Below, piece by piece: positions 8,407-31,527 of a DNA stretch of 64,000 nt (within the stretch, counting starts at the first letter, position 1; every line of letters starts with the position of its first letter). Source of the stretch: Aeromicrobium yanjiei (GTDB taxonomy: Bacteria > Actinomycetota > Actinomycetes > Propionibacteriales > Nocardioidaceae); assembly GCF_009649075.1 (NCBI RefSeq), contig NZ_CP045737.1, positions 2,728,001 to 2,792,000 of the forward strand, given 5' to 3'. A program made the translations under genes and the position numbers. The notes under the pieces are model-generated. The model did not search any database. It was not told the origin of the DNA and worked only from the letters and a program-made list of their open reading frames with translations.

Positions 8407-9549
8407 TCAGGCGGCGACGTACTCCATCACGATGGGTGTGCCCGGTGGGCTGGTCGACCAGTGCAGCAGGCCGTGCCCCTTGAGGTTGTGGTGTCTTCGG
8501 CACGGCGGTCCCATGTTGTCGCCGGTCGTCGGACCAACCGGGTGGGGTATTCGGTGGTCGAGATCGCAGCGTTCGGACGGCACCCTGCAGCCGGGTGCCT
8601 GGCAGACACCGTGCAGGAACCGAAGCGCCAGAGCGAGGGTGTCAGGTGCGAAACGACCCACGTACTCGTGAGAAAGGACGTCGTCGGTGACAGGGTCGAC
8701 CACGATGCGGTGCCAGAACGCGCTTCCGGTCGCGATGACGTCGGTGAGCCAGGGGGCGGGAACCGCCCAGCAGCCGTCGGTCGACTCGGCGAAACCGGGC
8801 GCAGCACCGGCGAGCACGTCGGCTGAGACGGTGACGGCAATGTTCGCGTCAACGGCTGAGGTGACGGCGTCCGAGCTGGTGCACCAGGCCACCAACAGAT
8901 CGGCCTCGCGCTGAGCGACGGTGCGGTCGTCGTCCGGGTCGGCCGGTTTGCGTGCCTCTTTGCGAAGGCGGGCCTCGATCGCGGCAGCCTCGTGGGAGGG
9001 CAGGTAGGCGTTCAGCCAGGACATGGAGTCGTCACCATGCGTGACCGTCACGCGCCGATCGGCGCGCTCCGTGTCGGCTCGTTCGACGGCCAGATCAGCC
9101 TCGACCCGCTGGACGAACCGCCGCAGCCATTGCCGCAGCTCAGCCCCGGTGTGGGAGGTCGCGTAGCCGATGACCCGGCCCTCGAGTCGGGCGATGGACT
9201 CGTCACGGTGCAGCTTCTCGATGGTCGCGCTGATGTCACTCACCCGGGAGAAGTCGATCAGCCCGTCGACGAATGCCTCCCACACCTGCGGAGTCTTCTC
9301 GCGCACGCGGTCGGCGATCGACAGTCGCAGGTGGATCTGCGCCTCGGACATCCCAGTCGCCTCACCGATCGTCAACGCGATCGCCGACCGCTCGATCTTG
9401 CGCCGCAGAGAGGACTCGATCAGGGCAGTGCGAGCCATCTCGGCGTCGCGGAAATCGACCATCCGCCCGATCGCGTACGCCTCGGCCCTGGCCTGCCAGC
9501 GCACGACGTCCGACAGGTCTTCTGTCGTCGGTGCTGTGGTGGTGGCCAT
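8407..9549 (-). CDS. DUF222 / HNH endonuclease domain protein (13E12-type)
   Basis: This 380-residue protein has an N-terminal DUF222 helical region (about 20-270) and a C-terminal HNH nuclease domain: CQAPGCRVP, then CDLDHRIPHPVGPTTGDN and CRRHHNLKG. The two Cys pairs can hold the structural zinc and DHR gives the catalytic His. Members form expanded families in actinomycete genomes and are suspected of mobility or DNA-damage roles, with no proven function. A relative lies at 54254. The -10 box TAGGTT sits 6 bases before the ATG, with GGAGGT in between. Unlike the second copy, it has no LexA box. Confidence 0.85.
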   Translation of the reverse strand: MATTTAPTTEDLSDVVRWQARAEAYAIGRMVDFRDAEMARTALIESSLRRKIERSAIALTIGEATGMSEAQIHLRLSIADRVREKTPQVWEAFVDGLIDFSRVSDISATIEKLHRDESIARLEGRVIGYATSHTGAELRQWLRRFVQRVEADLAVERADTERADRRVTVTHGDDSMSWLNAYLPSHEAAAIEARLRKEARKPADPDDDRTVAQREADLLVAWCTSSDAVTSAVDANIAVTVSADVLAGAAPGFAESTDGCWAVPAPWLTDVIATGSAFWHRIVVDPVTDDVLSHEYVGRFAPDTLALALRFLHGVCQAPGCRVPSERCDLDHRIPHPVGPTTGDNMGPPCRRHHNLKGHGLLHWSTSPPGTPIVMEYVAA

Positions 9550-9609: not shown

Positions 9610-9683
9610 TGCTCCCGGTGGGATTCGAACCCACACTGTGACGGGTTTAAGCCATCTGCCTCTGCCAGTTGGGCTACGGGAGC
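9610..9683 (-). tRNA. tRNA with anticodon UAA and short (class I) variable loop
   Basis: A 74-nt cloverleaf can be folded: acceptor stem GCTCCCG/CGGGAGC, a D-arm with GG in the loop, anticodon stem GATGG/CCGTC around loop CTTAAAC, a 5-nt variable loop ACAGT, T-stem GTGGG/CCCAC with loop TTCGAAT, and A73. The anticodon reads UAA, which decodes the Leu codon UUA. Bacterial leucine tRNAs normally have a long variable arm; this one has the short type. The D-stem has a C-A mismatch at its inner pair and CCA is not encoded (CCG follows). It is probably reported as tRNA-Leu, but charging identity is open. Confidence 0.8.
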
Positions 9684-9782
9684 GGGTGGCCAGCCTAGCG
9701 GCGGGGCGACCTTCGCCCGGTCGGCAACCCTTCCGCGATCCTTGCGTTGCCGATAGTCTGACCATCCGGTGCGTATCACGAA

Positions 9783-10652
9783 ATGAGTTGCCTCATGCGC
9801 AACAGATCGACAGCACGAGAACTGCGGAGGCTGCTCGAGAGCTCTCGCTACGAGGTCCTGCCCACCGCGTCGATCGAGGACAAGATCCTCGCGTCGGTCC
9901 CCCGGGGCCACACGATGACGATCACCGCGTCCCCGGGCAAGGGCCTCGGCGCGACGTTGGACCTGGCCGAGCGGCTCGCCGGTCACGGATACGTGGCAGT
10001 GCCGCACCTGGCAGCCCGGATGATCAGCGGACGCGACGAGCTCGCCGAGATCGTCGCGCGCCTCCAGGCGGCCGGCATCGACAGCGTCTTCGTGCCGGCG
10101 GGCGACGCGGATGCGGTCGGCGACTACTCCGGCTCGCTGGACCTGCTGCACGACCTGACCGCGATGGGCAGCCCGTTCCGCCACGTGGGCGTGACCGGAT
10201 ATCCCGAGTCCCACCCCACCATCGCCGACGACGTCACGGTGCAGGCCATGTGGGACAAGCGCCACCACGCGACGACCCTGGTCAGCAATCTATGCTTCGA
10301 CCCCCAGCTCGTCCGCACCTGGGTACAGCGGGTGCGCTCCCGCGGTGCCGTCATGCCGCTGCTGATCGGGATGCCGGGTCCGGTCGAGCGCACCAAGCTC
10401 CTCTCGATGGCCACCAAGATCGGCGTGAGCGAGTCGACCCGCTTCCTGGCCAAGAACAAGTCCGTCTTCGCGCGGATCGCGATGCCCGGCGGCTTCAGCC
10501 CGGAGAAGTTCCTCGAGCGCATCGCCCCGACCACCCAGGAGCCGGCGTCCCACGTCGAGGGCCTCCACCTGTTCACGTTCAACCAGGTCGCCGAGACCGA
10601 GGCCTGGCGCCAGGAGCTGCTCGGGCGACTCGCGACCGCCGCGATCGCCTAG
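9783..10652 (+). CDS. Methylenetetrahydrofolate reductase-like flavoprotein
   Basis: This 289-residue protein of the MTHFR/MetF fold belongs to the divergent, short actinobacterial type. It shows TMTITASPGKGLGATLDLAE, GYVAVPHLAARM, DSVFVPAGDADAVGDY and VGVTGYPESHP, the same order as MetF barrel strands 2-6. MTHFR interconverts methylene-THF and methyl-THF using FAD. It sits tail-to-tail with the corrinoid methyltransferase operon, whose product is expected to be methyl-THF. The natural role here may be oxidation of methyl-THF rather than methionine supply (inference). A -10-like TAGTCT at 9754-9759 precedes it. An ATG at 9795 is a possible later start. Its stop overlaps that of the DUF1638 gene. 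Confidence 0.78.
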   Translation: MSCLMRNRSTARELRRLLESSRYEVLPTASIEDKILASVPRGHTMTITASPGKGLGATLDLAERLAGHGYVAVPHLAARMISGRDELAEIVARLQAAGIDSVFVPAGDADAVGDYSGSLDLLHDLTAMGSPFRHVGVTGYPESHPTIADDVTVQAMWDKRHHATTLVSNLCFDPQLVRTWVQRVRSRGAVMPLLIGMPGPVERTKLLSMATKIGVSESTRFLAKNKSVFARIAMPGGFSPEKFLERIAPTTQEPASHVEGLHLFTFNQVAETEAWRQELLGRLATAAIA

Positions 10653-11311
10653 ACCTGCAGCAACGCCCGCATCGAGCGGTCCAGCCCGCCCAGGCCGACG
10701 TCGACCTCCGTCAGTGGGAGACCGATCAGGGACGCGGCATCCACCGCCAGGGCCCGCAGCTCCGTGTCGGGCTCCTGCGCGAGCCACACCACCCGGGTGT
10801 AGTGCCCGAAGTAGTCCTCACGCAGCTCGGGGTACCGGTCGAGCCCGAGCTCCTGCACCACGGTGCGCCGGAACGAGCGCACCAGGAAGTCGGTCAGGAC
10901 GTACGTGCCGGGCTGCTGCTCGAACATCGCGCGCATCCGGTCGGGGCCACCGAGGACGTCGTAGCAGTGCAGTCCGGCCAGACGACGCACGCCGTGCCGC
11001 TCGCACACCGCGTCCAGCTCTCCGTAGGTCCCGCAGTCGGCATAGGCGATCGCCACGGTGGCGTACGCCGGTCGGAGCGTGACGAGGAGCGCCTCGACCT
11101 CGGACGCGATCAGGTGCGGGGCGTTGTGGAGCAGCGGCGGCAGTGGGTGGACGTCGACCGGCCAGTCGTGCGACCGGACGATCTCGGCCACGGGCCGGGC
11201 GATCGCCCCGCACGCGATCACGGCGGTCCGGCGGGCGTCCGCGCCGTCACGGGAAGGCGAGGAGGTCGACGAACCGGTCGTTGAAGTCCGGTCGGTCCGA
11301 GAGCTCGACAT
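10649..11311 (-). CDS. DUF1638 domain protein, corrinoid methyltransferase-associated
   Basis: This protein of 220 residues or fewer ends the leftward corrinoid operon. After a Ser/Thr-rich N-terminal tail come TAVIACGAIARPV, YADCGTYGELDAVC and LHCYDVLGGPD, the cysteine-containing DUF1638 motifs. DUF1638 genes are found repeatedly beside MttB/MtgB-type methyltransferases in anaerobes and some aerobes; no activity is known. The ATG at 11311 has a strong AAGGAGG 6 bases upstream but overlaps the activase gene by 65 bases and gives a 30-residue tail unlike the family; a GTG at 11221 is the alternative. Possible metal or corrinoid handling is speculation. Confidence 0.75.
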   Translation of the reverse strand: MSSSRTDRTSTTGSSTSSPSRDGADARRTAVIACGAIARPVAEIVRSHDWPVDVHPLPPLLHNAPHLIASEVEALLVTLRPAYATVAIAYADCGTYGELDAVCERHGVRRLAGLHCYDVLGGPDRMRAMFEQQPGTYVLTDFLVRSFRRTVVQELGLDRYPELREDYFGHYTRVVWLAQEPDTELRALAVDAASLIGLPLTEVDVGLGGLDRSMRALLQV

Positions 11312-13157
11312 ATGACACCTCCTTCAGCAGCGCCTCGGCGCCGGCCCGCTCGGCCTTGCTGAGCAGGGTCATCTTGGCGCCCTCGCCCGCCACGTTGCCG
11401 GCGCTGACGATGCGCAGGACGGGAAGCCGCGGGACGAGCCCGATCCGGATCGCGCTGGCCGGGGAGAGATAGGAGCCGAAGGAGCCCGCGAGGAGGACCT
11501 GCTGCACGTCCTGCGCCTCGACGCCCATCTCCTCCAGCAGGAGCGTCCAGCCCGTAGAGATGGCCGCCTTCGCGAACTGCAGCTCGCGGACGTCGCGCTG
11601 CGAGATGTAGGTGGACTCCGCGACGTCACCCTCGGCGCCGGCCCAGTGCAGGACGAAGACGCGCTCCTCCCCGATCTGCACGAGCCGTCCGGCGAGCTTG
11701 GGCACGAGCTCCCGGGCGGCCTCCTCGCTGATCAGCCGGCCCGACCGGTCGAGCAGACCGATCCGCACGAGCTCGGACACCGCGTCGACGAGACCCGATC
11801 CGCACAGTCCCCGGGGCTCGACGTCGCCGATGACCTGCAGCTCGACGTCCTCGGGGGTCAGCGCGACGACCTCGATCGCCCCGTCGGCGGCGCGCATCCC
11901 GCAGCGGATCTGCCCGCCCTCGAACGCCGGACCGGCCGGCGCCGCGGTGGACAGCAGGCGCTCACCGTCGCCGAGGACGATCTCGCAGTTGGTGCCGACG
12001 TCGATGAACAGGCGCAGGCGCTTGTCGCGGTCCATCCCCGAGGCCAGGGTGCCGGCCACGATGTCGCCCCCGACGTACGCGCCGAGCGAGGGCAGGACGT
12101 ACGCCGGCGCGGCCGGGTGGATCGCGACCCCGAGGTCTGCGGCCGCGAGGGTCGGGGTGGTCCGCGAGCTGAGGATGAACGGAGCGACGCCGATCGGCTC
12201 GGGATCGATGCCGAGCAGCAGGGAGACCATCGTCGCGTTGCCCGCGAGCGCGATCTCGTAGACCTGGCCGGGATCGATGCCCGCCTCGGTGCAGACGTTG
12301 TCGGTGAGCTCGGCGAGCGTGTCCTTCGCCAGCTCGGTGAGCCGCGGCAGGACGTCCGGGTCCATCATGGTGGCGCTGATGCGGGTGATCACGTCGCCGC
12401 CGAACGGCTGCTGCTTGTTGAGCATCGAGGCGACTGCCACAGGCGTGCCGGTCGTGGTGTCGAGCAGCGTCGCGACGACGGTCGTGGTGCCGAGGTCGAA
12501 CGCCAGCGCGTGATGGGTCGCCGAGGTGTCGCCCGGCTCCACGTCGATCAGCTGGTCGTCCACGATGACCGCGGTGACCTTCCAGTCAGCCGCGCGGACC
12601 ACGGTGGGGATGCGCCGCAGCGCGTGCAGGCTGACCACCGGCTCCAGGTCGTCGATGGCCGCGAGCAGCCGGTCGACGTCGGGGACCTGGTCGGACAGCG
12701 TCGGCTCGGACAGCTCGACGTACCGCTTCTGGATCGCGGGGCGCAGGATGACCTGTCGCCCCACCCCGACCGTCGCGGCCTTGGGACGGGTCGTCAGCGG
12801 CGGGATCTCGATCGACAGATCGCTGTGGACCGCCGCGAGGCACGCGAGCCGCCAGCCCTCGGCCAGCTGGTCGGGCCCGAACGCGCGCTGGTCCATGGGC
12901 GACACGGGGATCGAGCCGTCGAGGATCCTGACCTTGCACTTCTTGCACGTGCCGTGGCCACCGCACGTGGAGTCGACCGCGATGCCGTTCCAGCTGGCGG
13001 CATCGAAGACCGACACCGCGGGCGGGACGCGCACCTCCCGGTCGGCCGGGGTGAAGTGCAGCCGGAGGCGCCCCGTCCCGTCCCACTCGGGGTGGGCCGC
13101 CTGCTCGGCGTCCTCGTCGACGTGGATCGCCCGGGAGCGACGCGGCGGCTCGCTCAT
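11247..13157 (-). CDS. RamA/RACo-type reductive activase of corrinoid proteins
   Basis: This 636-residue protein couples ATP hydrolysis to electron transfer, returning an oxidised Co(II) corrinoid to Co(I). The N-terminal [2Fe-2S] ferredoxin domain has Cys65, Cys71, Cys74 and Cys106 (C-x5-C-x2-C-x31-C). The rest is the DUF4445 ASKHA ATPase with FDLGTTTVVATLLD as phosphate loop. This is the bacterial RACo layout; the C-terminal 4Fe-4S pair of archaeal RamA is absent. The ATG at 13157 shares one base with the stop of the upstream methyltransferase gene (TGATG), so the two are translationally coupled. Its presence means the corrinoid protein is used catalytically and needs repair. Confidence 0.88.
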   Translation of the reverse strand: MSEPPRRSRAIHVDEDAEQAAHPEWDGTGRLRLHFTPADREVRVPPAVSVFDAASWNGIAVDSTCGGHGTCKKCKVRILDGSIPVSPMDQRAFGPDQLAEGWRLACLAAVHSDLSIEIPPLTTRPKAATVGVGRQVILRPAIQKRYVELSEPTLSDQVPDVDRLLAAIDDLEPVVSLHALRRIPTVVRAADWKVTAVIVDDQLIDVEPGDTSATHHALAFDLGTTTVVATLLDTTTGTPVAVASMLNKQQPFGGDVITRISATMMDPDVLPRLTELAKDTLAELTDNVCTEAGIDPGQVYEIALAGNATMVSLLLGIDPEPIGVAPFILSSRTTPTLAAADLGVAIHPAAPAYVLPSLGAYVGGDIVAGTLASGMDRDKRLRLFIDVGTNCEIVLGDGERLLSTAAPAGPAFEGGQIRCGMRAADGAIEVVALTPEDVELQVIGDVEPRGLCGSGLVDAVSELVRIGLLDRSGRLISEEAARELVPKLAGRLVQIGEERVFVLHWAGAEGDVAESTYISQRDVRELQFAKAAISTGWTLLLEEMGVEAQDVQQVLLAGSFGSYLSPASAIRIGLVPRLPVLRIVSAGNVAGEGAKMTLLSKAERAGAEALLKEVSYVELSDRPDFNDRFVDLLAFP

Positions 13158-14041
13158 CAGGCGCTCGCGGCCTCCTGGGCCGCCTTCTCCGCAGCCTGGG
13201 CCGCCCGGTGCTCGGAGATCCAGGCCATGCCCCACTCGTCGTTGCCCATCACCACGTCGGCGGCGCGGACCGCACGGACCATGCGGGGGCTGCGGGCGTC
13301 CATGATCGCGGAGGTCAGGCCCGACGCGATGGCCATGGGCAGGAACGAGGCCCCGAGGTCGTCGCGACCCGGCATGCCGAACGAGTTGTTGCCCGCGCCG
13401 CATGTCGTGTTGAGCCCCCACCGCTCGCGGATCATCGAGACCGTGGTGAAGAACGAGCGGCCCACCTGGGGGTCGGCGCCGATCGGCATCGCCAGCGGGT
13501 CGATCACGATGTCCTCGATCGCGATGCCGTACTCGGTGGTCGCGACCCGCACGATCTTCTCGACCAGCGCGATGCGCTTCTCGGGCTCCATCGGGATCTC
13601 GTCGTGATCGTTGGGCAGCGCGATCACGGCCGCGTCGTACTTCTTGACCAGCGGGAGGATCGCGGCCATCCGGTCGTCCTCGGCGGTGATGGAGTTGACC
13701 AGTGCACGTCCCTCGTACGCCTTCAGGCCCGCCTCGAGCGCCTCGACGACCGAGGAGTCGATGCAGATCGGCAGATCACAGGTGCTCTGCACCAGCGTGA
13801 TCGCCCGGCCCAGCAGATCGGCTTCGTCGGTCAGGGGGACGCCCATGTTGACGTCGAGCACCATCGCTCCCCCGGCCACCTGCGCTGCGACGTCCCGCTC
13901 GATCGCGGACAGGTCGCCCGCTCGCAGCTGCTCCTGGAAGATGCGCCGCCCCGTCGGATTGATGCGCTCGCCGATGATGCAGAACTTCTGGTCGTGACCG
14001 AGCACGACCTCCTTGCTGGCCGATCGGATGACGGTGTGCAC
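13157..14041 (-). CDS. Methyltetrahydrofolate:corrinoid methyltransferase (MtgA-like)
   Basis: This 294-residue TIM-barrel protein of the dihydropteroate synthase family moves a methyl group between a corrinoid protein and tetrahydrofolate. Folate-binding motifs are IIGERINPTGR near the N-terminus, VLDVNMGVP, CIDSS, LVNSIT and CGAGNNSFGMP near the end. The last of these carries the Asn that hydrogen-bonds folate N5. The best functional match is MtgA of glycine betaine demethylation, or AcsE/MetH domain II. The start is GTG with AGGAG 8 bases up. It is the third gene of the IclR-corrinoid-methyltransferase-activase operon. Confidence 0.88.
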   Translation of the reverse strand: MHTVIRSASKEVVLGHDQKFCIIGERINPTGRRIFQEQLRAGDLSAIERDVAAQVAGGAMVLDVNMGVPLTDEADLLGRAITLVQSTCDLPICIDSSVVEALEAGLKAYEGRALVNSITAEDDRMAAILPLVKKYDAAVIALPNDHDEIPMEPEKRIALVEKIVRVATTEYGIAIEDIVIDPLAMPIGADPQVGRSFFTTVSMIRERWGLNTTCGAGNNSFGMPGRDDLGASFLPMAIASGLTSAIMDARSPRMVRAVRAADVVMGNDEWGMAWISEHRAAQAAEKAAQEAASA

Positions 14042-14069
14042 GGGGCGGCTCCTGGCTGTGGGTCGGTGG

Positions 14070-14735
14070 TCAGACCGCGACGGACGCGCGGCGCTTGGCG
14101 ATCAGGTCCTTGGCCTTCTTGACCGTGGCGGAGGCGTCCGGCGCATAGGCATCGGCGCCGACTGCGTCCGCGTACTCCTGCGTGACCGGGGCGCCGCCGA
14201 CCATGACGATCACCTGGTCGCGCATGCCCGCCTTCTCGAGGGCGTTGATGTTGGCCTTGAACATCGGCATCGTCGTGGTGAGGAACGCCGACATGCCGAC
14301 GATGTCGGGCTGGTGCTCGGTGATCGCCTCGATGAACTTCTCGGGCGCGACCTGCACGCCGAGGTCGATGACGTGGAAACCGGCGCCCTCCAGCATGATG
14401 TTGACCAGGTTCTTGCCGATGTCGTGCACGTCGCCCTTGACCGTCCCCATGAGGAACGTGCCGACCGTCTCGGCGCCGGTCTCGGCCAGCAGCGGGCGCA
14501 GCACGTCGAGCGCCCCGCTCATCGCGCGGCCGGCGATGAGCATCTCCGGGACGAAGAAGTCACCCCGCTCGAACCGGGCGCCGACTTCCTCCAGGGAGGG
14601 GATCAGCGCGTCGAACAGGAGGGTCTCAGGCCCCATCCCCATGTCGATGCCCATGGTGGTGAGCTCGAGCACCCGCGGGGCGTTGCCGACCAGCGTCTCG
14701 TCGTACAGCCCTTGCAGCACTTCGTCAGGAGTCAT
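14070..14735 (-). CDS. Corrinoid (B12-binding) protein, MtgC/MttC type
   Basis: This 221-residue methyl carrier has a helical cap domain (about 1-88) and a Rossmann B12 domain (about 90-221). GTVKGDVHDIGKNL carries His104, the lower cobalt ligand, and SAFLTTTMP and VGGAPVTQEYADAVGAD are the usual later loops. It accepts a methyl group from the MttB-family enzyme encoded divergently and passes it to the MtgA-like protein. The start overlaps the stop of the IclR gene (ATGA), so regulator and corrinoid protein are coupled. Confidence 0.92.
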   Translation of the reverse strand: MTPDEVLQGLYDETLVGNAPRVLELTTMGIDMGMGPETLLFDALIPSLEEVGARFERGDFFVPEMLIAGRAMSGALDVLRPLLAETGAETVGTFLMGTVKGDVHDIGKNLVNIMLEGAGFHVIDLGVQVAPEKFIEAITEHQPDIVGMSAFLTTTMPMFKANINALEKAGMRDQVIVMVGGAPVTQEYADAVGADAYAPDASATVKKAKDLIAKRRASVAV

Positions 14736-15490
14736 GCCGGGGATACCTTTCGTGCGTGCCGGGCGAGCAGCCCGGTCAGCCGTTGGGACTCGGCCACCAG
14801 GAGGTCACCGATGCTCTTGTGGGAGTCCTCGAGGCGGAACGCCGGACCGGACACCCCGATCGCTGCGACGACCCGCTGGTCGTCTCCGCGCACGGGAGCC
14901 GCGACCCCGTCGAGGCCCTGCTCCAGCTCGCCGCGCGTGATCGCGAACCCTCGGCCGCGCACCAGCTCCAGCTCCTCGCGGTACGCGTGGGGATCGGTGA
15001 TCGTGGCCGGCGACCTGCGCTCCATCTCCCCCCTGGGCATGGGCAGCGCCCCGAAGGCGTGCATGACCTTGCCCAGCGAGGAGCAGTGCGGGGGCACGTC
15101 GATCCCCACCCAGTTCATCGCGCCGAGCATGTAGCTGGAGTCCACCTGGGCGACCTGGACGACCGTGCCCGCCCGCGCCACCGCGAGGTTGACCGTCTCC
15201 CCCGTCGCGTCGGCGATCCGGTCGAGCGTGGGCTGGGCCGTCGCGACCAGCGCCTCGACGCGGTCGAACCGGCGCGCGTAGTGCTCGAACAACGTCCCGC
15301 CGCGGAACGCCCCGTCGGGATCGCGCTCGAGCAGGCCGTTGCGCTCCAGGCTCTGCAGCAGGCGCGACGCGGTCGACCTGGCCAGTCCGGTCTGCTCGAC
15401 GATCGAGGTGTAGGTGACCGGCTCCTCGGCGCGCACGACGAGCGACAACAGCTCGGCGGCTCGATCGAGGGACTGGGTGCCGTTGCTCAT
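14732..15490 (-). CDS. IclR family regulator (first gene of corrinoid operon)
   Basis: This 252-residue regulator has an N-terminal winged helix (EEPVTYTSIVEQTGLARSTA then SRLLQSLERNGLL) and a C-terminal IclR effector domain (DSSYMLGAMNWVG, GVAAPVRGDDQRVVAAIGVS). It is transcribed with the corrinoid methyltransferase genes, its stop overlapping the next start. It probably binds the TGGAA/TTCCA palindromes just upstream (15516-15542) and so controls both its own operon and the divergent MttB-family gene. The ligand is probably betaine or a related methylamine (inference). ATG 15490 is preferred; an upstream in-frame start lies within the operator. Confidence 0.87.
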   Translation of the reverse strand: MSNGTQSLDRAAELLSLVVRAEEPVTYTSIVEQTGLARSTASRLLQSLERNGLLERDPDGAFRGGTLFEHYARRFDRVEALVATAQPTLDRIADATGETVNLAVARAGTVVQVAQVDSSYMLGAMNWVGIDVPPHCSSLGKVMHAFGALPMPRGEMERRSPATITDPHAYREELELVRGRGFAITRGELEQGLDGVAAPVRGDDQRVVAAIGVSGPAFRLEDSHKSIGDLLVAESQRLTGLLARHARKVSPA

Positions 15491-15515
15491 CGCGGTGCGA
15501 CCTTTCGCCACATTT

Positions 15516-15542
15516 GTTCCATATTGTGGAACCACAATTCCA
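15516..15542. promoter_or_regulatory. IclR-type operator cluster between divergent methyltransferase operons
   Basis: Two overlapping palindromes are visible: GTTCCA-TATTG-TGGAAC (15516-15532) and TGGAA-CCACAA-TTCCA (15527-15542). TGGAA/TTCCA half-sites match the known IclR-family core. Position and symmetry suggest control of both the leftward regulator-corrinoid operon and the rightward MttB-family gene. Confidence 0.65.
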
Positions 15543-15629
15543 CAACTTGAGGGTAGGATCCCGAATCGCAGGGGTCAAGCACAACGGTGCAGCGATTTCT
15601 CCCGGCCCCGCTCCGTCGTTGGAGGTCCG

Positions 15630-17069
15630 ATGTTCAAGAACACGATGCCGCGCTACGAGATCCTGTCCGAGGACGCGATGGCGTCCCTCGAGACGGCCTG
15701 GCGCCGGCTGATGACCGAGGTCGGCGTCGAGTTCATGCACGACGACGCGCTCGAGCTGTTCCGCCAGGCCGGCCAGAAGGTCGTCGACAACACCGTCTTC
15801 CTGGACCCCGAGTTCGTGCTCGCCCAGGTCGCCAAGGCGCCACGCGAGTTCGACGTCCAGGCCCGCAACCCCGCCAACAACGTGCACATCGGCGGCGACT
15901 TCATGTCGTTCAGCGGTGTCTACGGCCCGCCGTTCGTCCGCGAGGGCGCGGTCCGGCGGGACGCCATGATGGACGACTTCCGCAACTTCACGAAGCTCGC
16001 GCAGGGCTACGACGAGCTGGACTCCGCCGGCGGCATCATCTGCGAGCCGTACGACACCCCACTCGACTCGCGGCACCTCGACATGCTGCTCGCCCTGCAG
16101 ACCCTGACCGACAAGGTCTACATGGGCAACGTGGTGTCGGGGGTCAATGCGCGCGACACCATCGCGATGGGCGAGATCCTGTTCGGCGGCCGCGAGGCCA
16201 TCGAGGAGACGCCGGTCTCGATCTCCCTGATCAACTGCAACTCGCCACTGCGCTGGGACGACCGCATGCTGGAGTCCCTGCTGGAGTACGCCCGCGCGGG
16301 CCAGCCGGTCGTCCTCACCCCGTTCATCCTCATGGGCGCGATGTCCCCCGTCACGATCCCGGCGGCCCTCGTGCAGCAGATCGTCGAGGCGCTCTCGGGC
16401 ATCGCTCTGGCCCAGCTGGTGCGGCCGGGCACGCCGGTGATCTTCGGCTCGTTCCTGTCCAACATCGACATGCAGTCGGGATCGCCGTGCTTCGGCACGC
16501 CGGAGTCGGGAATCGGCCTGCTCTGCACGGGTCAGATCGCCCGCCGGTTCGGCCTGCCGTTCCGCTCCGGCGGTGGCCTCACCTCGGCGCACCAGGCCGA
16601 TGCGCAGGCCGGCTACGAGTCGCTCATGACGTTGATGCCCACGTTCCTGGCGGGTGCGAACTGGGTCATGCACTCCGCCGGATGGCTCGAGGGTGGGCTC
16701 GTCGCGGGCTACGAGAAGTTCGTGATGGACGTCGAGCTGCTGCAGATGCTGCGGGCCGAGTTCACGCCGCTGGAGATCGACGAGTCGTCGCTCGCCTTCG
16801 ACGCCCACGTCGAGGTCGGCCACGGCGGGCACTTCCTCGGCGCGATGCACACGATGGAGCGCTTCCGCACCTGCTTCCACCGTCCGTTCCTGTCCAGCTC
16901 GGACAACTTCGACAAGTGGACCCGCAACGGATCCCTCGACACCAACGACCGGGCCTCGGTCGTCTATCGCAAGCGCCTCGAGGAGTACGAGCAGCCGCCG
17001 CTGGACGAGGGCATCCGCGAGGAGCTCGAGCGGTACGTGATCCGTCGCCGCGCCGAGCTCGGCGACTGA
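15630..17069 (+). CDS. MttB-family methyltransferase without pyrrolysine (MtgB-like)
   Basis: This 479-residue protein of the trimethylamine methyltransferase (COG5598) family is expected to demethylate a quaternary amine, most likely glycine betaine, and methylate the corrinoid protein. The frame has no amber codon, so it belongs to the non-pyrrolysine branch that includes MtgB. Family stretches include VGVEFMHDDALELFRQAGQK, GGIICEPYDTPLDSRHLDML, GSFLSNIDMQSGSPCFGTPE and GLPFRSGGGLTSAHQADAQ. The ATG at 15630 has GGAGG 4 bases upstream. It is followed 2 bases later by purU and divergent from the regulator-corrinoid operon. Carnitine or proline betaine are other possible substrates. Confidence 0.85.
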   Translation: MFKNTMPRYEILSEDAMASLETAWRRLMTEVGVEFMHDDALELFRQAGQKVVDNTVFLDPEFVLAQVAKAPREFDVQARNPANNVHIGGDFMSFSGVYGPPFVREGAVRRDAMMDDFRNFTKLAQGYDELDSAGGIICEPYDTPLDSRHLDMLLALQTLTDKVYMGNVVSGVNARDTIAMGEILFGGREAIEETPVSISLINCNSPLRWDDRMLESLLEYARAGQPVVLTPFILMGAMSPVTIPAALVQQIVEALSGIALAQLVRPGTPVIFGSFLSNIDMQSGSPCFGTPESGIGLLCTGQIARRFGLPFRSGGGLTSAHQADAQAGYESLMTLMPTFLAGANWVMHSAGWLEGGLVAGYEKFVMDVELLQMLRAEFTPLEIDESSLAFDAHVEVGHGGHFLGAMHTMERFRTCFHRPFLSSSDNFDKWTRNGSLDTNDRASVVYRKRLEEYEQPPLDEGIREELERYVIRRRAELGD

Positions 17070-29626: not shown

Positions 29627-30606
29627 TCCTCGTCCTCGTCGAGACCGACGCGCAAGGTGTGACCCTGACCTCCCGCGAGGCGCTGACCTTCGCCCGGACG
29701 ACGGCCGAGCGGATGGGCGACCAGCAGGTCGAGGCCGTCGCCCTCGGCCCCCTGCCCGACGCACCCGCAACCCTCGCCCAGCTCGGTGAGCAGGGCGTCG
29801 CGGTCCTGCACCACGCCGACGACGAACGCCTCGCGCCCTACGGCGCTGCCGCCTGGGCCGCTGCCGTGGTGGACGCCGCCACGTCCGCGGCGGCCCGGCT
29901 CGTCGTCGCCTCCGGCACCCCGCGCGGCATGGAGGTGCTGGCGCACGTGGCCACCCGCATGGACTGCCTGATGGCCGCGAACGTCGTCGCGGTCGAGGAC
30001 ACCGACCCGCTCGTCGTGTCCCGCCAGGTCATGGGCGGCGGGGTCTTCGAGCGCATGCGGCTGGACGGCGACGTCGCTGTCGTCGCGGTCGCCGGGCACG
30101 CGGTCGAGCCCGCACCCGCGGCGCACCCCGGCGCACCCGACGTCCGCACGTACGTGCCCACGCTCACCGACGCCGACCTGTCGACCCGGGTGGTGCGCAC
30201 CGAGAAGGCCGAGGGCGACGACACCTCCGCACTCACTGGTGCGAGGGTCGTCGTCGGGGCCGGACGGGGTGCAGGCAGTGCCGAGGGATTCACCGACCTG
30301 CTGGAGCTGAGGGACCTGCTGGGTGGCGCGCTCGGCGTCTCCCGCGTCGTGACGAGCCTGGGCTGGCGCCCGCACCACGAGCAGGTCGGCCAGACCGGCA
30401 GCCGCATCTCGCCGGATCTCTACGTCGCGTGCGGCATCAGCGGGGCGATCCAGCACTGGGCTGGCTGCCAGAGCGCCAAGACGATCCTGGCGATCAACAC
30501 CGACCCGGACGCCCCGATGGTCACCCAGGCGCACTACGCCGTGATCGGCGATCTGCACGAGGTCGTGCCGGCGATCAACGAGGAGCTCCGCCGGCGGCGG
30601 GGCTGA
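29623..30606 (+). CDS. etfA: Electron transfer flavoprotein alpha subunit
   Basis: This 327-residue subunit has an N-terminal domain with VLVETDAQGV, then the FAD-binding C-terminal domain: ARVVVGAGRG, SLGWRPHHEQVGQTG, YVACGISGAIQHWAGCQSAK and AINTDPDAPM. It overlaps etfB (ATGA). With etfB it forms the heterodimer that hands electrons to ETF:quinone oxidoreductase; that oxidoreductase gene is not in the window. It ends the betaine-related operon, convergent with the dehydrogenase at 30616. Confidence 0.9.
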   Translation: MILVLVETDAQGVTLTSREALTFARTTAERMGDQQVEAVALGPLPDAPATLAQLGEQGVAVLHHADDERLAPYGAAAWAAAVVDAATSAAARLVVASGTPRGMEVLAHVATRMDCLMAANVVAVEDTDPLVVSRQVMGGGVFERMRLDGDVAVVAVAGHAVEPAPAAHPGAPDVRTYVPTLTDADLSTRVVRTEKAEGDDTSALTGARVVVGAGRGAGSAEGFTDLLELRDLLGGALGVSRVVTSLGWRPHHEQVGQTGSRISPDLYVACGISGAIQHWAGCQSAKTILAINTDPDAPMVTQAHYAVIGDLHEVVPAINEELRRRRG

Positions 30607-30615
30607 GCTGCCGGC

Positions 30616-31527
30616 TCAGCCGCTGACCACCACGAGCTCGGGCTCGCGCCCCTCGAGGAGGCGCTTCACCTGGGCGCGGACGATCGCGTCGATGCGCGGC
30701 TGCATCGCCGACGACATGCCCCCGACGTGCGGGGAGATGAGGACGCCGGGGACGCTCCACAACGGATGGTCCGCGGGCAGCGGCTCGGGATCGGTGACGT
30801 CTGCCGCGAACCGGATGCGGCCGCCCTGACGGACGATCGCGTCGGTGTCGGCGACCTTGCCGCGCGAGACGTTGACGACGATCGCCCCGTCGGGGAGCGC
30901 CGAGAGGAAGGCGTCGTCGACCATGCCCTCGGTCCGGTCGGTCAGGGGCACGGCCAGCACGACCGCGTCGACCGTGGGCAGCAGGGACGCGAGCTCGTCG
31001 TTGCCGTGGACCACGCCACGATCGTCCTCTCGCCGGTGGGTCGCCACCCGGACGATCTCGGCGTCGAAGCCGTCGAGGCGCTTCTCCAGCTCTGCGCCGA
31101 TCCCGCCGGTCCCGACGAGCAGGATCCGCCGGTCGATCAGGCTGGCGGTGAAGCGGCGGTTCCACTGACCGGCCTCGCGGGCGTACCGGTCGACCTCGCG
31201 CTGCGAGGCCAGCAGCAGCGCGACGGCCAGCTCGGCGGTCGAGGCCTCGTGCACGCCGACCGCGTTGCAGTAGGTGATGCCCGCGGGGAGGGTCTCGGCG
31301 ACCCCGTCGTAGCCCAGCGCCTGTGACTGGATGACGGACAGGCGTGAGGGGTCGAGGGTCTCGAGCCCGGCCGCCGCGACGGTGTACGGGCGCACCGCGA
31401 GGTCGATGTGGCGCTCGGGCTGCGGGTCCGAGAAGTCCCAGACCGTCAGGTCGACGTCCTGGAGATCCGAGAGCCGGTCGATCCAGCCGATGTCGGGCAC
31501 GGTGACATGGAGCGTACGAGGGGCCAT
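30616..31527 (-). CDS. D-isomer 2-hydroxyacid dehydrogenase family protein
   Basis: This 303-residue NAD(P)-dependent enzyme has nucleotide-binding LLVGTGGIGAELEKRL and the catalytic trio Arg in VVNVSRGKVAD, Glu in DVTDPEPLP and His in ISPHVGG. It resembles the phosphoglycerate dehydrogenase/glyoxylate reductase branch; the substrate is unknown. ATG 31527 follows a CATGAT-CGAGGC arrangement (leaderless type); a longer start would run through the GntR operator. It is divergent from the GntR-lldD pair. Confidence 0.85.
   Translation of the reverse strand: MAPRTLHVTVPDIGWIDRLSDLQDVDLTVWDFSDPQPERHIDLAVRPYTVAAAGLETLDPSRLSVIQSQALGYDGVAETLPAGITYCNAVGVHEASTAELAVALLLASQREVDRYAREAGQWNRRFTASLIDRRILLVGTGGIGAELEKRLDGFDAEIVRVATHRREDDRGVVHGNDELASLLPTVDAVVLAVPLTDRTEGMVDDAFLSALPDGAIVVNVSRGKVADTDAIVRQGGRIRFAADVTDPEPLPADHPLWSVPGVLISPHVGGMSSAMQPRIDAIVRAQVKRLLEGREPELVVVSG

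Follow-up and report, generated by a model that had tools for sequence, protein, structure and literature searches.

A probable tRNA-Leu(UAA) of class I form in Aeromicrobium yanjiei and its spread among the Actinomycetes

The whole stretch of 64,000 nucleotides from Aeromicrobium yanjiei considered here (the window) carries a tRNA gene with the leucine anticodon UAA and without the long variable arm of leucine tRNAs, which raises the question of what kind of tRNA it encodes and which amino acid it delivers. In passages of two reviews, tRNA-Leu is treated as a class II tRNA (PMC7609411, PMC9976931), a class that is defined by a variable arm at least 10 nucleotides long (in a section of PMC7609411). 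In part of a further paper, the long loop of tRNA-Leu-2, 3 and 5 of Mycobacterium tuberculosis is likened to that of tRNA-Ser, with no word there on how the UAA tRNA is built (PMC11541572). An earlier note on this locus had left the choice between a misfit leucine tRNA, a tRNA which is charged with another amino acid and recodes UUA, a regulatory tRNA-like RNA, and a conserved but overlooked actinobacterial tRNA. As set out in the following, we regard it as very probable that the gene encodes a genuine class I tRNA-Leu(UAA) which would be charged by LeuRS and would read the rare codon UUA. The gene, its parts and its surroundings are located in the window as follows.

9610..9683, minus strand: class I tRNA-Leu(UAA) gene, 74 nt up to the discriminator A73
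9658..9674, minus strand: leucine-type D-arm, 3-bp stem GCC/GGC, 11-nt loop CAACUGGCAGA
9640..9656, minus strand: anticodon arm, anticodon UAA at 9649-9647
9635..9639, minus strand: variable loop, 5 nt, ACAGU, the last U being U48, the partner of A15
9692..9697, minus strand: likely -10 box TAGGCT, 9-14 bases 5' of the tRNA
8407-9549: DUF222 gene, the next one downstream
9783-17069: corrinoid one-carbon cluster, upstream of the tRNA

The presence of a tRNA with anticodon UAA at this position, which had been proposed from the letters alone, was borne out, on the minus strand, by ARAGORN, which returned tRNA-Leu (taa), and by a match to Rfam RF00005 with 54.8 bits (gathering score 29, E 4.7e-9). 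The minus-strand letters are GCTCCCG TA GCC CAACTGGCAGA GGC A GATGG CTTAAAC CCGTC ACAGT GTGGG TTCGAAT CCCAC CGGGAGC A; the CCA end is incompletely encoded, as CCG follows the A. The variable loop is indeed of five nucleotides (ACAGU, 9639-9635) with no long arm, against the at least 10 nt required for class II and thus for a tRNA of the bldA kind. The mismatch that had been noticed in the inner D-stem is likewise real, with C13 facing an A, yet both bases are invariant in all 48 relatives that were aligned. Since the same genome's long-arm tRNA-Leu(UAG) has a D-arm of the same build, GUG GAACUGGUAGA CAC, also with a 3-bp stem and an 11-nt loop, this mismatch belongs to the leucine-type D-arm pattern and is no defect. 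ARAGORN also called a second tRNA in the window, Gly(gcc) at 30579-30656 on the plus strand; this call lies below the Rfam cut-off, is absent from the tRNA matches of the genome and may be spurious or mark a degenerate gene.

For a test of the cloverleaf, an alignment of 48 diverse class I leucine tRNAs was drawn from 78 distinct ones, three of which show a terminal C that merely reflects trimming one base too far. Pairing is kept in 99.5% of the 960 cells, two-sided changes occur in 17 of the 20 stem pairs, and compensatory changes were found in all four arms; the D-stem, as an example, appears as GCC/GGC, CUC/GAG, CGC/GCG, AUC/GAU and other variants. None of 500 shuffles scored as high, and no slid version of the fold came near. 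In parts of PMC9976931, A73, A14, A15-U48, G18G19 and A20a are reported as leucine identity elements, and the long arm as dispensable for leucine identity in E. coli. All of these elements are present in the tRNA-Leu(UAA) of Aeromicrobium yanjiei, and A14, A15, G18, G19 and A20a all reside in the D-loop CAACUGGCAGA. Among the 48 relatives, A14, A15, G18, G19, U48 and A73 are invariant (48/48), and A20a is found in at least 90%. Conservation and the full set of reported identity elements argue against the suggestion of a misfit leucine tRNA. Because all reported identity elements are present, the LeuRS of the cell, of which a single one was found above the family cut-off in the genome, probably charges the tRNA with leucine; it would recognise it by the D-arm, A14, the A15-U48 pair and A73, without the long arm. 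A leucine tRNA without a long variable arm is also known from human mitochondria: a part of PMC9976931 describes the mitochondrial tRNA-Leu(UUR) as leucylated, with A73 and A14 specifying leucine. That tRNA, however, is an organelle tRNA served by the mitochondrial LeuRS, and the likeness need not reflect common descent. Some UAA tRNAs (L082, L085, L088, L089, L241, L242) have variable loops of 6-8 nt and lie between class I and class II in length.

A normal long-arm tRNA-Leu(UAA) elsewhere in the genome, for which the earlier note had suggested a search, was not found. The genome (3,682,026 bases in two contigs, 99.99% complete) yielded 46 tRNA matches with Rfam RF00005, and ARAGORN, run on the loci of all 46, identified a single UAA tRNA, that at 9610-9683. 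The four further leucine tRNAs, with the anticodons CAA, CAG, GAG and UAG, are all of the long-arm kind, and a pattern for a long-arm UAA tRNA had no match in the genome. A long-arm tRNA-Leu(UAA) hidden by a group I intron was considered as well and rejected, as no such intron was found in this genome by a search that gave a signal in 4 of 14 control genomes. The class I tRNA-Leu(UAA) would accordingly be the tRNA that decodes the rare UUA, other readers of this codon having not been found among the tRNA matches of the genome.

The tRNA is not a peculiarity of this strain. In a search of 58 genomes, including our own, 34 of the 37 Aeromicrobium genomes gave a match to the tRNA-Leu(UAA); the three without a match are 58, 82 and 88% complete. 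The long-arm UAA pattern was matched in none of the 37, but in all eight genomes of another family of the same order (f3); a ninth long-arm match, in a genome of family f2 (G040), did not look tRNA-like by eye. Class I UAA tRNAs were found in all five genomes of family f2, and in family f4 UAA tRNAs with a variable loop of 7-8 nt were read in three of eight genomes. The remaining matches read in f3 and f4 are class I tRNAs with the anticodons CAA or UAG.

The survey was extended to 295 genomes of Actinomycetes, each at least 95% complete. The class I UAA pattern was matched in 150 of them, in 52 of 102 genera, a count that still includes at least four genomes (G168, G204, G284, G298) with only a non-tRNA match; the pattern read backward as a control was matched in one genome. 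The long-arm UAA pattern was matched in 48 genomes (backward control: six), of which 44 appeared tRNA-like by eye and four (G040, G073, G247, G293) were discounted as not tRNA-like. These 44 include all 32 sampled members of a single genus (g26), whose long-arm UAA sequence we take to be Streptomyces bldA. There was no overlap between the 44 long-arm genomes and the 150 class I genomes. Neither pattern was matched in 100 of the 295 genomes, and 25 of these were re-examined by a looser search, which gave matches in 21 and none in four. Class I leucine tRNAs with the anticodon UAA, CAA or UAG make up 28 of the 30 loci obtained, the other two being cross-hits (Asn, Arg). In six of the 25 genomes the looser search brought up a class I UAA tRNA overlooked before, in four owing to another D-stem and in two to another base in the anticodon loop, and 15 others have a class I CAA or UAG tRNA. 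Among named genomes, a narrow class I UAA pattern returned 90 stretches, and each of the 80 loci listed is a class I tRNA-Leu(UAA), with no long-arm tRNA-Leu(UAA) among them; they include Aeromicrobium, Cutibacterium, Micropruina, Tessaracoccus, Demequina, Cellulomonas and Actinotalea. One of the 80 (L264), from a metagenome bin, is titled 'Proteobacteria bacterium'. Class I UAA tRNAs were also seen in records of Nocardia farcinica and Arthrobacter in the plasmid set, where the Nonomuraea match is a class I CAA tRNA. The occurrence in 34 of 37 Aeromicrobium genomes and the pattern matches in 150 of 295 Actinomycetes genomes support the proposal of a conserved but overlooked actinobacterial tRNA, and broad conservation as a tRNA-Leu in related genomes, which the earlier note had named as the observation that would go against an anomalous tRNA, was found. 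The class I form would stand in place of the long-arm (bldA-type) tRNA in Aeromicrobium and many other Actinomycetes, and it was probably the class I tRNA that replaced the long-arm one and not the reverse.

TAGGCT or TAGTCT was found within 15 bases 5' of the tRNA in 25 of the 29 Aeromicrobium loci listed, as read by eye, the other four being without it. Of 92 loci, a set in which some genomes appear twice, 50 have the more general TANNNT starting at -12 to -15, and TANNNTGG lies within the last 30 bases 5' of the tRNA in 25 of the 92, compared to a background rate of 0.24%. Expression of the tRNA-Leu(UAA) is likely because a -10-like box occurs close to its 5' end in 25 of the 29 loci listed. 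These findings bear on the reading as a regulatory or vestigial tRNA-like RNA outside translation, which would fit the low demand for a reader of so rare a codon and the incompletely encoded CCA. The covariation in all four stems, the retention by 34 of the 37 Aeromicrobium genomes together with the -10-like box, and the position as the only UUA reader found in the genome all speak against an RNA of this kind, and we hold a role of this sort to be very improbable.

The genes surrounding the tRNA are not conserved along with it. Within flanks of up to 1.5 kb, some of them shorter, a DUF222 gene is located near the tRNA in one of 30 Aeromicrobium loci, which is the locus in the window, and an MTHFR-like gene adjoins the tRNA in two of the 30 (again with flanks of up to 1.5 kb, some shorter). 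Thus, the neighbouring genes do not travel with the tRNA-Leu(UAA). The cluster at 9783-17069 comprises genes for MTHFR-like, DUF1638, RACo-type corrinoid activator, pterin-binding and B12-binding proteins, an IclR regulator and an MTTB-family protein, the gene for the last being open with no in-frame stop. A functional link between the tRNA and an MttB corrinoid methyltransferase cluster was rejected, as the MTTB gene has no in-frame stop and the MTHFR-like neighbour is found in only two of 30 loci. An identity as tRNA-Pyl, considered as an MTTB gene lies nearby, does not fit either: tRNA-Pyl has the anticodon CUA and a variable loop of 3 nt, the present tRNA UAA and 5 nt.

Similar tRNAs are widespread on mobile elements. 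A similar stretch (E up to 0.01) was found in 400 of 50,697 phage records and in 20 of 72,556 plasmid records, and in many of the phage records the tRNA is annotated as tRNA-Leu. Ten phage and plasmid loci were read, and in eight a leucine tRNA lay under the match (UAG 4, UAA 2, CAA 1, CAG 1). At a crAss-like phage locus the tRNA under the match is an isoleucine tRNA (UAU), and on a Bifidobacterium plasmid none of the listed leucine and isoleucine tRNAs is the one under the match; similarity alone is therefore no proof of isotype, and viral contigs were for this reason scanned with a pattern for the leucine-type body that left the anticodon open. Here, 80 loci were read among at least 120 stretches. 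Both stems are formed in 85 of the 86 viral matches listed, and 83 of these 85 have leucine anticodons (UAG 38, UAA 22, CAA 15, CAG 4, GAG 3, AAG 1), the other two a histidine anticodon. Class I leucine tRNAs of phages and plasmids, such as those of Gordonia phage GodonK, Streptomyces phage CeilingFan and Mycobacterium phage ET08, share the short arm and a similar body with the tRNA in the window, but differ in having the anticodons UAG, UAA, CAA, CAG or GAG, often in arrays, and are probably accessory to the tRNAs of the host. Two plasmids from other phyla, whose tables carry no RNA genes, have short-arm leucine tRNAs near one another, with the anticodons CAA, UAG and UAA on a Calothrix plasmid (L101) and with CAA and UAA on pRUMAL01 of Ruminococcus albus (L102).

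The similar tRNAs in phage arrays and the DUF222 gene just downstream might indicate that the tRNA came recently from a mobile element, as a gene of a phage or tRNA array placed beside a DUF222/HNH gene and redundant with the tRNA set of the host. A recent arrival appears very improbable, as 34 of 37 Aeromicrobium genomes have the tRNA, the DUF222 gene accompanies it in its own locus only among the 30 loci with flanks of up to 1.5 kb (some shorter), and a second UAA tRNA to which it would be redundant was not found in the genome. An ancient transfer from or to phages may have occurred.

If the tRNA-Leu(UAA) is charged with leucine, UUA should stand at leucine positions, and this was examined in 400 kb of the own genome compared to two relatives (G029 and G034). 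That UUA codons are extremely rare, as stated in the earlier note, was confirmed: five were counted among 50,530 aligned codons against G029 and four among 65,448 against G034, about 1 in 10,000, and part of these lie in reading frames of spurious appearance. Several frames being doubtful, the residue opposite UUA is leucine in five of five cases in G029 and in three of four in G034, the fourth being a serine; in the reverse direction, again with several doubtful frames, leucine of the own genome faces two of three UUA codons of G029 (the third faces an isoleucine, in a doubtful frame) and three of three of G034. The serine stands opposite codon 7 of a gene that is DUF222-like by eye and whose frame looks real. 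Two more UUA codons lie in frames that look real: opposite the one in G000:C2:2720520-2721875, by eye a gene for a membrane protein, the relatives have CUC (G029) and CUG (G034), and opposite the other, close to the beginning of a regulator-like gene, G029 has UUG. One UUA of G034 faces CUC in the own genome. The own-genome codons are in keeping with leucine, although the sample is too small to be decisive. In a further frame that looks real, of 471 amino acids at G000:C2:2871211-2872623 (L134), each of the three genomes has TTA as the penultimate sense codon in spite of the rarity of UUA.

Because UUA is so rare and some frames are doubtful in the own genome, we turned to a small genome of the same class with a lower GC content (G090; 0.479 in the 400 kb read) and 40 tRNAs. 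Its tRNA-Leu for UAA and for CAA are both class I, with no long-arm kind found for these codons, and its other two leucine tRNAs (GAG, UAG) have the long arm. The comparison kept 90 genes whose products match the proteins of the own genome, G029 and G034, taken together, at 35% identity or more; UUA is used in them at 17 per 1000 codons. Leucine stands opposite 63% of the 463 aligned UUA codons, as compared to 64% for UUG and 63-67% for CUN, and opposite 16% of AUU, 14% of AUC and 26% of AUG among the non-leucine codons. With conserved neighbours, UUA faces leucine in 69% (isoleucine and valine in 8% each) and the other leucine codons in 74-79%, which puts UUA slightly below these but nowhere near the codons of another amino acid. 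UUA is thus read at leucine positions in G090, and these alignments indicate that the codon is leucine where a class I tRNA-Leu(UAA) is its reader.

Together, these data bear on the alternative of a recoding tRNA, by which a non-leucine charging would have given UUA a new meaning in the genus. Such a view could draw on a leucine anticodon set within a class I frame, on the near-absence of UUA, which would ease a reassignment, and on the UUA opposite serine in G034 and the one of G029 opposite an isoleucine codon in a doubtful frame. We nevertheless consider recoding to be extremely improbable, in view of the leucine identity elements, the six leucine anticodons which the same tRNA body carries in viral contigs, the leucine meaning of UUA in G090, and the CUC, CUG and UUG codons opposite the own-genome UUA codons and CUC opposite one of G034. 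Thus, the tRNA is most likely a LeuRS-charged tRNA-Leu, and not one charged with another amino acid, because of the leucine anticodons of its viral relatives (83 of 85 matches listed) and the meaning of UUA in G090.

Compared to known systems, the class I tRNA-Leu(UAA) shares with class II leucine tRNAs such as bldA of Streptomyces the leucine anticodon, A73, the 3-bp D-stem and the AA..GGnAGA loop, as seen in the long-arm tRNA-Leu(UAG) of its own genome. It differs from them in having no long variable arm, and no surveyed Actinomycetes genome shows both kinds of UAA tRNA. A leucine tRNA with a short variable loop is already in print from Mycobacterium mucogenicum and from 'Mpho', presumably M. 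phocaicum. According to a part of PMC6582537, this tRNA-Leu(UAG), likewise an actinobacterial leucine tRNA, resides in a tRNA gene cluster and is an extra copy beside a normal long-arm isoacceptor, whereas the tRNA described here is the sole UAA tRNA found. Among the papers listed by a search of the literature, in which most subscription journals lie outside the coverage, none deals with an actinobacterial class I tRNA-Leu(UAA). In function the tRNA is ordinary, in form unusual, and its spread is wide.

We consider it about an even call whether class I tRNA-Leu represents a separate, partly mobile bacterial lineage, with all six leucine anticodons among its members in viral contigs, which took over UUA, and in some genomes UUG, on many actinobacterial chromosomes, where UUA would then have no reader of the bldA type. 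If this is true, such tRNAs might evade enzymes which bind the long arm, and they would be a natural proof that a bacterial LeuRS can do without it. Already as found, the class I tRNA is the only reader of UUA detected across a whole genus, and by the patterns used here it is commoner than the long-arm kind in the Actinomycetes sample. It offers a natural test of the claim, derived from E. coli, that the long arm is unnecessary for LeuRS, and class I leucine tRNAs may be assigned to the wrong isotype where the long arm is used as a guide. A review of 100 actinobacterial genomes, in the part of PMC4255298 that deals with bldA, suggests that its developmental significance may stop at the Streptomycineae, and makes no mention there of a different UUA tRNA. 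In Streptomyces, the bldA switch works through a long-arm tRNA, and in genomes with a class I UAA tRNA an ortholog of bldA is not to be assumed.
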